Made by a program: the position numbers and the translations under genes. A stretch of DNA of 64,000 nucleotides from an uncultured Neomegalonema sp. (lineage in GTDB: Bacteria > Pseudomonadota > Alphaproteobacteria > Rhodobacterales > Rhodobacteraceae): positions 1 to 64,000 of the forward strand of contig CALKIZ010000030.1 of assembly GCA_937995735.1 (NCBI GenBank), given 5' to 3'. This document shows positions 16,481 through 21,642 of this stretch, piece by piece (position 1 is the stretch's first letter; each line of letters begins with the position of its first letter). A model generated the notes under the pieces. The model made no database searches. It saw nothing but the letters and a program-made list of their open reading frames with translations, and had not been told where the DNA came from.

Positions 16481-18223
16481 TCACTGGGCTGGCCGGGCTA
16501 TTTCCGTTTTTGGAACAATCAGCTCGATGTAAAAGCTATCGCTTGTCTGTCTGCGGTTCACAGTTCCACGCAACTGACGGGTAAAACCATCAATGAGTTG
16601 TTGGCCGATGCCGCGTCCGGCATTTTCTTTTTCGTCTTTGCTAACGGCTTCGGGGTGTTTGCTGTTTTGGATACTCAAGCAAAGAGAGTCGGTATCATCC
16701 TGCAAGATGATTTCCAATTTACCATTATCAACATGGCTGAGCGCGTGCTTGAATGTGTTCACAATGGCTTCTGTTGCGAACAGAATAAGAGGGACTGCTG
16801 TATCAGGGATCACTGTAACGGGGTTAAGATCAGTCGTTAAGGTGACAGAGTCGCTTTTTCGGGCACTGCCGTTTCGAAGATTTTCCGCAATCTCGGTTAT
16901 CAGCAGGTCTATTCGAACAGCATTGGTATTTTCTGATTCATAAATTTTTTGATGTACGAGCGCAAGTCCTTGAATGCGTTCTTGAAGGCGCTCTAATCCT
17001 AGTTTTTCCCGGTCGCTGCCTGCATCGCGAATTTGTAAACTCATCAGGCTTGAGATCATCTGTAGATTATTTTTGACCCGGTGATTGACTTCGCGAAGCA
17101 AGCCGTCTTTTTCTTGGACGGTTTCAACGAGATCCTGTTCCCGGGTTTCAATTACCTCGACCATTTCATCGAAGCTGGACCCAAGTTTAGCGATTTCTGT
17201 TGGTGCATTGCGCATACGATGCGCCCGCAATGGCCTTCCACTTCGCCCGTATGCCGTAACCAAACGATCAAGATATAGGATGTGACGCAGTGCAAGTTGA
17301 TCAACCGCAAAATATGCAACAGCAACCGCAAGACCCCACATCAGAATAGGCAGGCTTACGGTCAATAGATTGAGCCATCCCAGTGACGCTGGCACAATTT
17401 CACCGGGCCAGCTGGAAATCGCAAAAATATCTTGCTTGAACAGGGGAGCAATCGCGAAAACTCGCGTTTGACCTGATCGCGAACTAACTTCAACGATCCT
17501 CTCTGGACTTGCAAAAATAGCTCTTAACTTTGTAGCAGATGGCAACCAGTCGAAATCAGTGGCGGAGGTGCTTTGTGCAACCCCTGATCCATCGGCGGTC
17601 ACGATTGCAAAACGTGCTTCGGGGGCAAGATTTTTCGACCGGGCTACCCATTCTAAATAGCGACTTGAGATCGACATGCTAAGGGAACCACGTAGCGCTC
17701 CGTCTCGGTAGATGGGTTGATTAACAACGATGACTTGTTGACCGCTGACTTCCCCTTTTTCCCGTGCTGTCACGGCGCGGCGAGGGGATTTTAAAAAAGT
17801 CTGGAATCCGATTTGATTACTAAAATCAAGAGGTGAAGCCGGCGGGTGGGAACATTCCATCATCCCTTCAGAATCGATAAACCCAATGAAAGGGACAGTT
17901 GGTTCTTGCTCGATAAATGCATTAAGAATGCCACGGCATGTGTCGGCGTCTCCGTCGACATCAATCAATGCATCAAGCGCATTTAACGCTCCAAAAGCCT
18001 CTAGTATCGCGGCTTGTTCTATCTGACTGGCCTGAACAGCTTCGAAAGTGAATGCCTCGCGGCGTAATTTTTTTGTCTCAGCGTAATTGGTTATTCCTTG
18101 TGCGACCGCGAAGACGCCTATTGGCAGCATGGCGACGGCCAACAGAATTGCGACCTGAGCGCGCAGGCTTAACTTGCGGAGCAGCCGTTCTAAAGAAGGA
18201 AAGATTGACTCGGATCGTCGCAC
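16481..18223 (-). CDS. PhyK-like sensor histidine kinase of the general stress response
   Basis: A 580-residue membrane kinase with a transmembrane helix near residues 22-42, a large periplasmic sensor region (about 45-285), and a second helix near 287-310. The H-box is LLREVNHRVKNNLQMISSLM, the HisKA_2 type found in kinases that phosphorylate PhyR. The ATPase part includes ATEAIVNTFKHAL (N-box) and GRGIGQQLI (G-box). The GTG start at 18223 is four bases after the ecfG stop, so it is the last gene of nepR-ecfG-kinase. Its location makes PhyR the likely target; the stimulus cannot be read. Confidence 0.85.
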   Translation of the reverse strand: MRRSESIFPSLERLLRKLSLRAQVAILLAVAMLPIGVFAVAQGITNYAETKKLRREAFTFEAVQASQIEQAAILEAFGALNALDALIDVDGDADTCRGILNAFIEQEPTVPFIGFIDSEGMMECSHPPASPLDFSNQIGFQTFLKSPRRAVTAREKGEVSGQQVIVVNQPIYRDGALRGSLSMSISSRYLEWVARSKNLAPEARFAIVTADGSGVAQSTSATDFDWLPSATKLRAIFASPERIVEVSSRSGQTRVFAIAPLFKQDIFAISSWPGEIVPASLGWLNLLTVSLPILMWGLAVAVAYFAVDQLALRHILYLDRLVTAYGRSGRPLRAHRMRNAPTEIAKLGSSFDEMVEVIETREQDLVETVQEKDGLLREVNHRVKNNLQMISSLMSLQIRDAGSDREKLGLERLQERIQGLALVHQKIYESENTNAVRIDLLITEIAENLRNGSARKSDSVTLTTDLNPVTVIPDTAVPLILFATEAIVNTFKHALSHVDNGKLEIILQDDTDSLCLSIQNSKHPEAVSKDEKENAGRGIGQQLIDGFTRQLRGTVNRRQTSDSFYIELIVPKTEIARPAQ

Positions 18224-18227
18224 TTAA

Positions 18228-18776
18228 TCATTTCCGTCCCGAGCTGCCGTCAGATCCAAGGGCTGCGAGCAACTCGCCCTCTGACCCGGTACCGCCTACG
18301 GTGTCATCGTCTAGTAGTTCAACTAAACGAGCGCGGGCGCGGTTTACCCGGCTTTTCACAGTACCAACAGCACATCCGCAAACAGCTGCGGCCTCCTCGT
18401 AAGAAAATCCTGATGCACCCACAAGCGTTAGAGCTTCGCGCTGGTCTGGCGGGAGGGTGGCAAAAGCATCATTAAAATCCCGTAAGTCCATTATGCCTTG
18501 CTGGGTTGGCTTATCAGGAACCTGCGCCGCATATCGTCCATCAATATCTTCAACTTCACGGCGGTGTTTGCGAATTTCCGAGTAGAACGTGTTGCGAAGG
18601 ATTGTGAACAACCAAGCGCGCATGTTCGTCCCCTCCTTAAAGCTATCAAGGTTGCTCCACCCTTTCAGAATTGTTTCTTGGACAAGATCGTCAGCCCTTG
18701 TTTGATCGTGGACGAGGCTGCGGGCAAAAGCGCGCAAATTACTTGTCTGTGCAATCAGATCATCTTCGAGGCTCAT
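18228..18776 (-). CDS. ecfG: EcfG-type extracytoplasmic function sigma factor
   Basis: RNA polymerase sigma factor of the alphaproteobacterial general stress response. The 182 residues contain region 2 (SLVHDQTRADDLVQETILKG and NMRAWLFTILRNTFYSEIRK) and region 4 (LPPDQREALTLVGASGFSYE, then CGCAVGTVKSRVNRARARL). Its ATG overlaps the nepR stop (ATGA), which couples sigma and anti-sigma synthesis. It should recognise the GGAAC-N17-CGTT promoters found upstream of nepR and phyR, giving positive autoregulation. Confidence 0.95.
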   Translation of the reverse strand: MSLEDDLIAQTSNLRAFARSLVHDQTRADDLVQETILKGWSNLDSFKEGTNMRAWLFTILRNTFYSEIRKHRREVEDIDGRYAAQVPDKPTQQGIMDLRDFNDAFATLPPDQREALTLVGASGFSYEEAAAVCGCAVGTVKSRVNRARARLVELLDDDTVGGTGSEGELLAALGSDGSSGRK

Positions 18777-18952
18777 TTTTTAACGCCAAGACGGAGTTGC
18801 TCGAGTAATGAATTTAACTTATCGGGAAGCGGTTCGTTTGCCACGTCGTCGTACACTTGCTTCAGCGCATGTGATATGGGGTCTTTCGGAGATGTATTGT
18901 GAGGAGGGGTTTCATCCTCATCATAACCACTCGGTTCGGAATTAGTTGCCAT
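18773..18952 (-). CDS. nepR: NepR anti-sigma factor
   Basis: Small (59-residue) anti-sigma factor that holds EcfG until phosphorylated PhyR takes it away. The conserved core is present: ISHALKQVYDDVANEPLPDK followed by LNSLLEQLR, the two helices that bind the sigma factor. The start is ATG 18952, with GGAG six to eight bases upstream; the longer frame to 19018 would run through the promoter palindrome. It is first in the nepR-ecfG-kinase operon. Confidence 0.94.
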   Translation of the reverse strand: MATNSEPSGYDEDETPPHNTSPKDPISHALKQVYDDVANEPLPDKLNSLLEQLRLGVKK

Positions 18953-18983
18953 TCTCACTCCCAAATTGTTTTTACTCCGCAAT

Positions 18984-19009
18984 GGAACCAAACGTTCCTG
19001 CGTGACGTT
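18984..19009 (+). promoter_or_regulatory. EcfG-dependent promoter of phyR
   Basis: GGAAC (18984-18988) and CGTT (19006-19009) with a 17-base spacer, about 50 bases upstream of the phyR start. The match is exact and the element forms the mirror image of the nepR promoter, within a 14-bp inverted repeat (18982-18995 and 19005-19018). Confidence 0.85.
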
Positions 19010-19016
19010 TGGTTCC
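18991..19016 (-). promoter_or_regulatory. EcfG-dependent promoter of nepR-ecfG
   Basis: On the minus strand the -35 GGAAC (19016-19012) and -10 CGTT (18994-18991) are separated by 17 bases, the EcfG consensus. It overlaps the promoter for phyR on the opposite strand. Confidence 0.85.
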
Positions 19017-19059
19017 ATAACCTTACAAATAATTCAGTGATTGGGGATTTTTGAACACG

Positions 19060-19890
19060 ATGGACGAAAACGTTAAATCACCGGGCGACACGGCTGACAT
19101 TCACAATGCTGTTGCGACCCATCTTCCATTTCTCCGACGCTTTGCGCGGGCGTTGACAGGGTCACAGGAAAGCGGTGACTCGTATACAGTGGCAACGCTG
19201 GAAGCGATTATTGCAGACAATACAATATTCGATACAAACCTCTCAGCTAGGGTTGCGTTGTTCCGCTCATTTCATGCGGTTTGGTCCAGTTCCGGTTCTG
19301 CCGCAGATTTTTCATCAAAATCTACTGGTGGATTAGAAGACATCGCACAGCGCCGGATGGCAGTATTAACTCCGCCATCGCGTGAAGCGTTACTCCTGAG
19401 TTCTCTCGAAGATTTTTCGATAAACGAAATTGCAACGATCATGGATATTTCGACAGCAGAAGCGCAGATGTTGCAAGAGGCCGCTCTGTCGGAGATTGAG
19501 AAACAGACATCGGCGCGAATCTTAATTATCGAAGATGAACCGATTATCGCAATGGATATCGAGTCTATTGTTCTTGAATTGGGTCACACAAGTCTCGGAA
19601 TTGCAGACACACGTGAAATTGCCGTTAGGCTGGCAAAGGATGAGCGTCCTGATTTGATCCTGAGTGATATTCAATTGGCAGATGGTTCGTCAGGAGTTGA
19701 TGCGGCAAAAGAAATCCTGGACCAATACAGTGTGCCTATCATTTTCATCACAGCTTTTCCGGAGCGCTTATTAACCGGTGAACGTCCGGAGCCGACCTTT
19801 CTGATTACAAAACCATTTAAAAGGTCTGCGGTTCAAGTCGCGGTATCACAAGCATTGTTTTTTGGCACTGCATCGGCGATTCAACTATGA
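19060..19890 (+). CDS. phyR: PhyR, anti-anti-sigma response regulator
   Basis: Two-domain regulator. The N-terminal part (about 1-145) mimics an ECF sigma factor, with a region-4-like stretch SREALLLSSLEDFSINEIAT, and binds NepR once the C-terminal receiver domain is phosphorylated. The receiver domain (about 153-276) has IIEDEPIIAMDIES (acidic pocket), Asp203 in LILSDIQLADG (phosphorylation site), ITAF (Thr) and ITKPF (Lys). The start is ATG 19060; the TTG at 19051 would add three residues. The divergent position opposite nepR-ecfG is the standard layout. Confidence 0.95.
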   Translation: MDENVKSPGDTADIHNAVATHLPFLRRFARALTGSQESGDSYTVATLEAIIADNTIFDTNLSARVALFRSFHAVWSSSGSAADFSSKSTGGLEDIAQRRMAVLTPPSREALLLSSLEDFSINEIATIMDISTAEAQMLQEAALSEIEKQTSARILIIEDEPIIAMDIESIVLELGHTSLGIADTREIAVRLAKDERPDLILSDIQLADGSSGVDAAKEILDQYSVPIIFITAFPERLLTGERPEPTFLITKPFKRSAVQVAVSQALFFGTASAIQL

Positions 19891-20001: not shown

Positions 20002-21642
20002 TTATTGAGACAGAGATTTCCCCGGTGCAATTGCACTGGATGACGTTACCACATGGATTAAAGCCGGGCGCCGCGCAGCACGAGACCGTTCGAAGGCGGC
20101 TGGAAATTCCCGGTCGTCTGTGACGATTTCACCATGAAATCCATATGCTTCAGCGAGAGGTGCAAAGCTCGGATTTTGTAACCAAGTCCCACTTACCCGT
20201 CCGGGATATTCTCGTTCCTGATGCATTCGGATTGTGCCGTACATGCCATTGTCTGAGACGATCACGATCACGTTCGCCCCTTCTTGGGCGGCTGTTCCCA
20301 TTTCTTGAATTGTCATTTGCAAACAGCCATCCCCGGCGAGGCAAATGACTTCACGGTCGGGATAACGCAGCTTGGCGGCGATTGCGGCAGGCAAACCATA
20401 TCCCATCGACCCGGATGTTGGGGCAACCTGGGTCCCGTAACGGTGAAACCGATAGAACCGATGGAGCCATCCCGCGTAATTTCCGGCACCGTTTGTCAGG
20501 ATTGCATCTTGCCGCAACACATCGCGTAAGTGCGTAATGACAGCACCCATGGTCGCATCTCCTGGCGCCTCGGGTGGTGTCTCGCTCCACGCAAGGTAGC
20601 TTTCATGGGCGTTTTCAGTTTCGTGCGTCCAACTGAGAATTTCAGGCGTGTCTATCTCCAGCGCACGGGATAAGAACCCGCCCGGAGTCGCGTTCATAGC
20701 CAGATTTGGAGCATAGATACGGCCTAATTCTTCTGCGCCGGGGTGGATATGAATAAGCATCTTGTCCGGATTCGGAATCTTAATCAGATCAAATCCTTGC
20801 GCCGGATTTTCCGAAAGGCGGCCTCCCAATAAAATCAGCAAATCGCTTTCTTCGATCCGCTGACGTAACTCAGGATTAATTCCCAGCCCGACATCGCCTG
20901 CATAGCAAAAATGGTTGTGGTCGAATAAATGTTGTCGCCGGAACGAGCATCCAATAGGCAGCATCCACTTTTCTGCCATGACCCGTAAAGCTCGAACGGT
21001 TTCTGGGTTCCAACGCGAGCCACCAACAATCACGAACGGTTTCGTTGATTGCGAGAGGAGCGTTTTAAACCATTCCATTTGCGCGGCGCTTGGTGATGGT
21101 TCTGAGACTTCTACTCGGCGCGCGGGTTTCACGTTGACCTGATCGCGCAACATATCTTCAGGAAGGACGAGTATCACGGGGCCGGGGCGACCACTCATGG
21201 CCACATGCCAAGCACGATTGATAATTTCTGGGATACGGGCGGGATCTTCAATCTGTTCGACCAGCTTGGCCATGCCGCCGAACATCAGACGATAATCGAC
21301 TTCCTGAAATGCATCGCGGCCTGTCCAACCTCGGGATATTTGTCCGACGAAAAGGATCATCGGCGTTGAATCTTGCTGAGCGACATGGACACCAGCGGAC
21401 GCATTGGTCGCGCCGGGACCACGGGTGACGAAGCATACGCCGGGGCGTCCGGTCAATTTCCCGTCTGCTTCTGCCATCATCGCTGCGCCGCCCTCTTGCC
21501 GGGCGACAACAGTTTGAACAGCAGAACCGTGCAGGCCATCGAGTACGGCTAAATAGCTTTCACCGGGGACGCAAAATACACGTTTGACCCCTTGTTCAAC
21601 GAGACACTCTACCAGCAGCTCGCCACCTGTTTGAGCCGTCAT
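20002..21642 (-). CDS. Thiamine diphosphate-dependent enzyme, acetolactate-synthase-like
   Basis: A 546-residue ThDP enzyme with the three usual domains. The N-terminal domain has the catalytic Glu in VVARQEGGAAMMAEADGKLT and the stretch VTRGPGATNA. The C-terminal domain has the metal/ThDP motif beginning GDGCLQMTIQEMGTA and ending VIVSDN. It resembles the large subunit of acetolactate synthase, but no small regulatory subunit is nearby, so a catabolic decarboxylase or carboligase is equally possible and the substrate is unknown. ATG 21642 overlaps the rhodanese gene stop. It is third in the order fghA-rhodanese-ThDP enzyme, all with four-base overlaps. Confidence 0.85.
   Translation of the reverse strand: MTAQTGGELLVECLVEQGVKRVFCVPGESYLAVLDGLHGSAVQTVVARQEGGAAMMAEADGKLTGRPGVCFVTRGPGATNASAGVHVAQQDSTPMILFVGQISRGWTGRDAFQEVDYRLMFGGMAKLVEQIEDPARIPEIINRAWHVAMSGRPGPVILVLPEDMLRDQVNVKPARRVEVSEPSPSAAQMEWFKTLLSQSTKPFVIVGGSRWNPETVRALRVMAEKWMLPIGCSFRRQHLFDHNHFCYAGDVGLGINPELRQRIEESDLLILLGGRLSENPAQGFDLIKIPNPDKMLIHIHPGAEELGRIYAPNLAMNATPGGFLSRALEIDTPEILSWTHETENAHESYLAWSETPPEAPGDATMGAVITHLRDVLRQDAILTNGAGNYAGWLHRFYRFHRYGTQVAPTSGSMGYGLPAAIAAKLRYPDREVICLAGDGCLQMTIQEMGTAAQEGANVIVIVSDNGMYGTIRMHQEREYPGRVSGTWLQNPSFAPLAEAYGFHGEIVTDDREFPAAFERSRAARRPALIHVVTSSSAIAPGKSLSQ

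Follow-up and report, generated by a model that had tools for sequence, protein, structure and literature searches.

The phyR/nepR-ecfG locus and its inverted repeat

In the window, which is the whole 64-kb stretch of DNA that was analysed, phyR is divergent from nepR and ecfG, and the PhyR product combines a sigma-like domain with a receiver domain, which is the arrangement of a PhyR-NepR-EcfG locus (Table 1). The Pfam matches agree with the names that the first-pass annotation had given to the three flanking genes. The phyR gene starts at the ATG at 19060, and an in-frame TTG is present at 19051. The longest nepR reading frame starts at an ATG at 19018, inside the palindrome described below; the likely start of nepR is the ATG at 18952. 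The sensor histidine kinase gene that follows ecfG is a candidate for the kinase of PhyR. An acetolactate-synthase-like reading frame, whose identity was read from its translation, lies just downstream of phyR (window 20002-21642), and on the D. shibae plasmid pDSHI02 an acetolactate synthase gene is found about 2.2 kb downstream of phyR.

Table 1. Genes and putative promoter elements at the locus, in window coordinates.
Feature	Position	Strand	Basis
phyR	19060..19890	+	PF22029 PhyR_sigma2 1.6e-24; PF00072 Response_reg 1e-12
nepR	18773..18952	-	PF18557 NepR 1.1e-11
ecfG	18228..18776	-	Sigma70_r2 5.3e-16; Sigma70_r4_2 2.1e-16; overlaps the nepR stop
HWE/HisKA_2 sensor histidine kinase, downstream of ecfG	16481..18223	-	PF07568 7.8e-21; PF07536 2e-09
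Inverted repeat holding two putative interleaved EcfG-type promoters	18982..19018	.	Repeat and motif search
phyR promoter, -35 GGAAC	18984..18988	+	Motif match
phyR promoter, -10 CGTT	19006..19009	+	Motif match
nepR-ecfG promoter, -35 GGAAC	19012..19016	-	Motif match (GGAAC 19016-19012)
nepR-ecfG promoter, -10 CGTT	18991..18994	-	Motif match (CGTT 18994-18991)

A single inverted repeat was found within 18700-19300. Its arms (18982-18995 and 19005-19018) are 14 nt long, 100% complementary and separated by a 9-nt centre, as the first-pass annotation had described. Its further claim of an exact GGAAC-N17-CGTT on each strand also holds, with both matches present and both spacers N17, in agreement with the EcfG (ECF15-type) consensus GGAAC-N16/17-(C/G)GTT. 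Each -35 box was said to lie beyond the opposite -10 box, and it does so by 2 bp on both sides, with 11 bp between the two -10 boxes; the footprint that the promoters share, measured from GGAAC to GTTCC, is 33 bp and not the 35 given earlier. Promoter elements are present on both strands of the same DNA, as in a bidirectional promoter. The motif matches support a reading of the repeat as two putative EcfG-type promoters, one per transcription unit, that are superimposed on each other. The phyR transcript is predicted to start at about 19014-19018 and the nepR-ecfG transcript at about 18982-18986. The consensus, together with the analogy to the mapped locus of S. meliloti, suggests that both promoters would depend on EcfG; in S. 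meliloti, the mapped starts of rsiA1 (nepR) and rsiB1 (phyR) are reported downstream of RpoE2-dependent promoters (PMC3616915).

The consensus alone is weak evidence, since 1.84 matches to GGAAC-N16..18-CGTT are expected by chance per window, and since the N16/17 form has fewer matches in the whole genome (49, with 18 forward and 31 reverse) than its reversed control (131, with 67 and 64). The 64-kb window contains exactly two matches to GGAAC-N16..18-CGTT, both at the inverted repeat. What stands out is the superposition, not the consensus alone. In the 3.69-Mb genome the fully specified mirror has a single occurrence, and a chance palindrome can be rejected because the interleaved geometry appeared in 0 of 4340 dinucleotide shuffles of the same intergenic regions.

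Conservation of the promoter pair in related genomes

Of the 247 unique PhyR-coding places that were gathered, 217 are accompanied by a NepR core motif in divergent orientation. A mismatch cost, with spacers of 15-18, was used to score promoter pairs, which were then classed by the offset between the two promoters; an offset of 6-8 corresponds to the geometry of the window and is called the mirror. Under the score cut-off, a locus in which one box is badly mismatched still counts as single-sided, and two such loci, L184 and L234, are degenerate mirrors. Three items stand outside the counts, namely the family PhyR fragments G406 (the same as L307/L308) and G331 and a second copy from the window's genus (G010). 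The 92 family places include second copies from some genomes. The Neomegalonema locus L032 (Rhodobacterales) comes from the contig that is also listed as G007; it was assigned to the genus and left out of the 25 named loci of the order.

The mirror is present at 108 of the 217 loci with a divergent nepR. In the window's family outside its genus it occurs at 76 of 92 places, which is 76 of the 88 with a divergent nepR, and in the family mirrors 1-3 bp separate each -35 box from the opposite -10 box, which lies further in. The remaining 12 of the 88 comprise eight with the nepR-side promoter only, one with the phyR-side promoter only, two with neither and one with a pair at a 2-bp shift; by the cut-off, 8 of the 88 are without a phyR-side promoter, including the degenerate mirror L234. 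Within the window's genus (20 places) the mirror is found in six, all of them primary loci (6/14). The phyR-side promoter is missing from the other eight primary loci, seven of which keep the nepR side and one of which falls below the cut-off on both, and none of the six second copies has the mirror. When the genus is included without its second copies, the mirror is present at 82 of 102 family loci, and the exceptions are 15 loci with the nepR side only, one with the phyR side only, three with neither and one at a 2-bp shift. These exceptions include the degenerate mirrors L184 and L234, and 7 of the 15 nepR-only loci are from the window's genus.

In the rest of the class the mirror was found at 4 of 56 places, 25 of which are without a divergent nepR. 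Among named loci it occurs in 22 of 79, all within the 25 from Rhodobacterales (22/25); of the three that remain in the order, L054 and L096 have the nepR side only and L068 is cut by a contig end. The mirror is also plasmid-borne in Dinoroseobacter shibae DFL 12, Gemmobacter fulvus and Roseicitreum antarcticum, and a plasmid of Ketogulonicigenium vulgare carries it with one mismatch. A consensus pair was not found in the phyR/nepR region of Roseobacter litoralis.

A scan without spacing limits located GGAAC...GTTCC at a total span of 30-33 bp in 77 of the 88 family loci, and of those 77 loci, 58 have an exact CGTT at 16 or 17 bp from GGAAC on the plus strand and 48 on the minus strand. A strict pattern (2-bp gaps and two inner lengths) was searched for in 199 genomes of the family, including 91 with a PhyR match. 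It occurs in 43 of the 199, at exactly one place in each, with 0 matches for the reversed control. Of these matches, 42 are within 250 bp of a PhyR match, and the 43rd (G406) is near a contig end between NepR-like and PhyR-like frames, as read from their translations. Since all 43 strict matches are at phyR, this form of the element is locus-specific in those genomes. A looser mirror pattern matched four of 387 class genomes, three from the family at phyR and one elsewhere in G199 (control, 3 genomes). The mirror in G199 (L309:1501-1532) lies upstream of a gene for a single-domain response regulator (Response_reg), not phyR; it could mark a GSR phosphorelay gene or be a chance match.

The boxes hardly vary among the 108 mirrors, in part because the scoring selects for them, and the sequence of the inner spacer is almost random. 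The gaps range from 1 to 3 bp and the inner length from 9 to 12 bp, and the distance from GGAAC to CGTT stays promoter-like; this distance was restricted to 15-18 by the scoring, and the unrestricted scan agrees. Judged from this conservation, both putative promoters are under selection.

Distribution and other promoter geometries

When 246 PhyR rows are placed on a FastTree tree, the mirror is distributed throughout the PhyR clade of the family with scattered losses, and the named Rhodobacterales fall inside this clade. Family f36 (L152, L155 and L156), which lies far from this clade, has a similar but weaker pair, and L141 (f131) has another. An independent origin of these pairs is likely, a grading that reflects a quick tree with long branches.

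Outside the family a back-to-back arrangement is found, in which GTTCC and GGAAC are 6-9 bp apart (12 of 31 non-family loci, a set to which the named loci do not belong). Back-to-back EcfG-type pairs with a fixed 33-bp offset are present at L117, L122, L131, L133, L135, L136 and L138, and the S. meliloti locus (L301) is also back-to-back. The back-to-back pattern matched 17 of 387 class genomes, 9 at phyR and 8 elsewhere as judged by comparing coordinates (control, 2 genomes). Six genomes of the window's genus carry second PhyR-NepR loci (L247 and L265-L269). The PhyR of these loci groups with rows outside the family, near L133, and their promoters are back-to-back in 4/6 and weak in 2/6. The second GSR locus of the genus looks horizontally acquired.

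The named loci outside Rhodobacterales, nearly all of which are from Sphingomonadales, have the nepR-side promoter only in 49 of 54 cases. As in the window, nepR in Sphingomonadales diverges from phyR behind an EcfG-type promoter. Unlike in the window, most of these loci have ecfG beyond phyR, and no phyR-side consensus promoter reaches the cut-off, the sole match being GAAAC-N16-(N)GTT with a 2-bp shift. This match is possibly fortuitous. The shift-2 pairs of Sphingomonadales seem to arise from the near self-complementarity of the EcfG consensus: among shuffles that give a pair, shift-2 is the commonest class (21/34). Three loci of family f31 (L146, L147 and L148) have GGAAC-N16-GGTT on both strands at a 2-bp shift, with the -10 box and the opposite -35 box sharing letters; shuffles place them in the class that is most easily reached by chance.

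A proposed shared bidirectional promoter and its relation to known systems

PhyR, NepR and EcfG are described as the parts of a partner switch, and according to two papers both transcription units are usually driven by EcfG (PMC4814048; PMC8103513). The reading preferred here, to which a probability of about 0.74 is given, is that the element serves the general stress response (GSR) sigma factor EcfG as a compact bidirectional promoter, with two complete interleaved promoters that lead into phyR and into nepR-ecfG. The leftward promoter would drive nepR-ecfG and probably also the kinase gene behind it. From the geometry, the two holoenzymes would have to bind an identical stretch of 33 bp, and only one polymerase could do so at a time. 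Joint occupancy by two holoenzymes appears sterically implausible, so the choice of orientation would set the relative output of the two units. PhyR and EcfG/NepR would be produced from one site in a ratio determined by relative promoter strength, and there would be a ceiling on total initiation, while interference might arise only under strong induction of the response. EcfG is inactive at rest and is freed under stress. Interference, if any, would thus be expected under stress.

A broader proposal is that the GSR switch of Rhodobacterales is run from a single obligately bidirectional ECF promoter, that the orientation in which polymerase binds determines how much PhyR is made relative to NepR/EcfG and limits the positive loop when stress is strong, and that other Alphaproteobacteria reached the same coupling with back-to-back promoters. 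This proposal is speculative and rather unlikely. Balanced two-way control everywhere is disfavoured by the loci that keep the nepR side only (15/102) against the one that keeps the phyR side only (1/102), and by the 8 of 14 primary loci of the genus without a phyR-side promoter. In R. sphaeroides, membrane stress increases ecfG mRNA in a PhyR-dependent manner and does not raise phyR mRNA, singlet oxygen, superoxide and diamide increase phyR mRNA 2-3 fold and not ecfG mRNA, and dRNA-seq maps the nepR-ecfG promoter to DNA opposite the coding sequence of phyR (PMC5830050). For at least this species of the order, the mRNA data argue against the two units being controlled jointly. The R. sphaeroides data also count against the preferred reading, as do the 8 of 14 genus loci and the 8 of 88 loci in the rest of the family that are without a phyR-side promoter, the missing consensus pair of Roseobacter litoralis and the behaviour of the E. 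coli bidirectional promoters described below.

It is quite possible, at slightly under even odds, that both promoters are real and needed while the overlap itself has no role, and that their tight packing is simply frozen. An indel that separates the promoters would break one of them, so the geometry would be inherited, and lost rather than loosened. In keeping with this, no separated pair is present among the 102 family loci (82 are interleaved, one has the 2-bp shift and the rest are below the cut-off), and the trait tracks the PhyR tree. The EcfG boxes are near reverse complements (GGAAC and GTT), so superposition would be easily reached. Warman et al. report no polymerase competition at basal activity for five bidirectional promoters of E. 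coli (PMC12825309). However, the narrow back-to-back geometry (5-9 bp) in some other Alphaproteobacteria hints that close coupling may be favoured, a pattern that is suggestive only.

It is distinctly improbable that the nepR-ecfG promoter alone works, with the phyR-side match weak or vestigial or with phyR transcribed mainly from another promoter. The tendency of degraded pairs to keep the nepR side (15 vs 1 of 102, with 7/15 from one genus) is in line with such a loss, and in R. sphaeroides phyR mRNA shows no rise under the only stress that raises ecfG mRNA (PMC5830050). Nevertheless, the phyR-side boxes hardly vary among the 108 mirrors, which were selected for having them, and are exact in the window; a simple consensus scan of 18900-19120 found no sigma-70-like promoter; and rsiB1 of S. 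meliloti is reported as RpoE2-dependent (PMC3616915).

Perfect 14-bp arms around a 9-bp centre would also suit an operator for a dimeric regulator in place of two promoters, but the selected symmetry and fixed arm spacing of a palindromic operator were not found, and this reading is very improbable. Two 2-bp gaps are present in 62 of the mirrors, and 16 of these have complementary gap bases, compared with 15.75 for shuffled ones, which puts the symmetry between the boxes at chance. The arm spacing differs among relatives, whereas the GGAAC-to-CGTT distances cluster at 16-17. The closest relatives retain both promoters, some with one altered -10 base, and their perfect repeat is broken. The first-pass annotation had treated the palindrome itself as important and had suggested looking for it in related genomes; on both counts it is the two promoters that stay and not the perfect repeat. 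Inverted repeats can fold, but a transcribed hairpin or terminator can practically be dismissed, as the predicted starts at the outer edges of the repeat would leave it out of both transcripts and 18900-19120 is without a terminator-like site. Since the promoter pair is conserved and the palindrome is not, the element is classed as a bidirectional ECF-sigma promoter.

The genes, their layout, the sigma factor, the consensus and the autoregulation of both units are all shared with the divergent phyR and nepR-ecfG promoters of earlier accounts, whereas interleaving is not described in the parts of these accounts that were available (PMC4814048; PMC8103513). The S. meliloti locus differs in that its -35 boxes are placed back-to-back, 5 bp apart. 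The divergent layout is known, and the interleaved geometry is new so far as searches of one open-licence library show, which listed no description of interleaved phyR/nepR promoters. Sigma/anti-sigma positive loops require a controlled ratio of their parts, and, if the bidirectional reading is true, one 33-bp site alternating between the activator and the sigma/anti-sigma pair would be a simple way of setting this ratio. The interest is limited to the extent that exclusion and its consequences are inferred. The element is small, conserved and locus-specific and is present in tractable strains, where polymerase competition can be addressed by point mutations.

The bidirectional promoter proposed here resembles the sigma-70 bidirectional promoters in its pseudo-symmetrical DNA, in the two orientations open to RNA polymerase, in divergent transcription and in that one binding event would preclude the other (PMC12825309; PMC10268837). 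For the sigma-70 promoters, Warman et al. report that strong activation in one direction represses the divergent RNA and that noise is lower under interference (PMC12825309). The sigma-70 type has a shared -10 element, with starts that are usually 18 bp apart and that are defined as 7-25 bp apart (PMC10268837). The window element is not of this subtype, because its -10 boxes are separate; it has two full ECF -35/-10 sets, and its predicted starts are about 28-36 bp apart. The element is best regarded as a bidirectional ECF-sigma promoter, a variant of the known sigma-70 bidirectional promoters; with it, the class would no longer be confined to symmetry of the sigma-70 -10 element but would take in an ECF promoter that is fully interleaved. 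It also differs from them in that the products of both directions regulate the same sigma factor.
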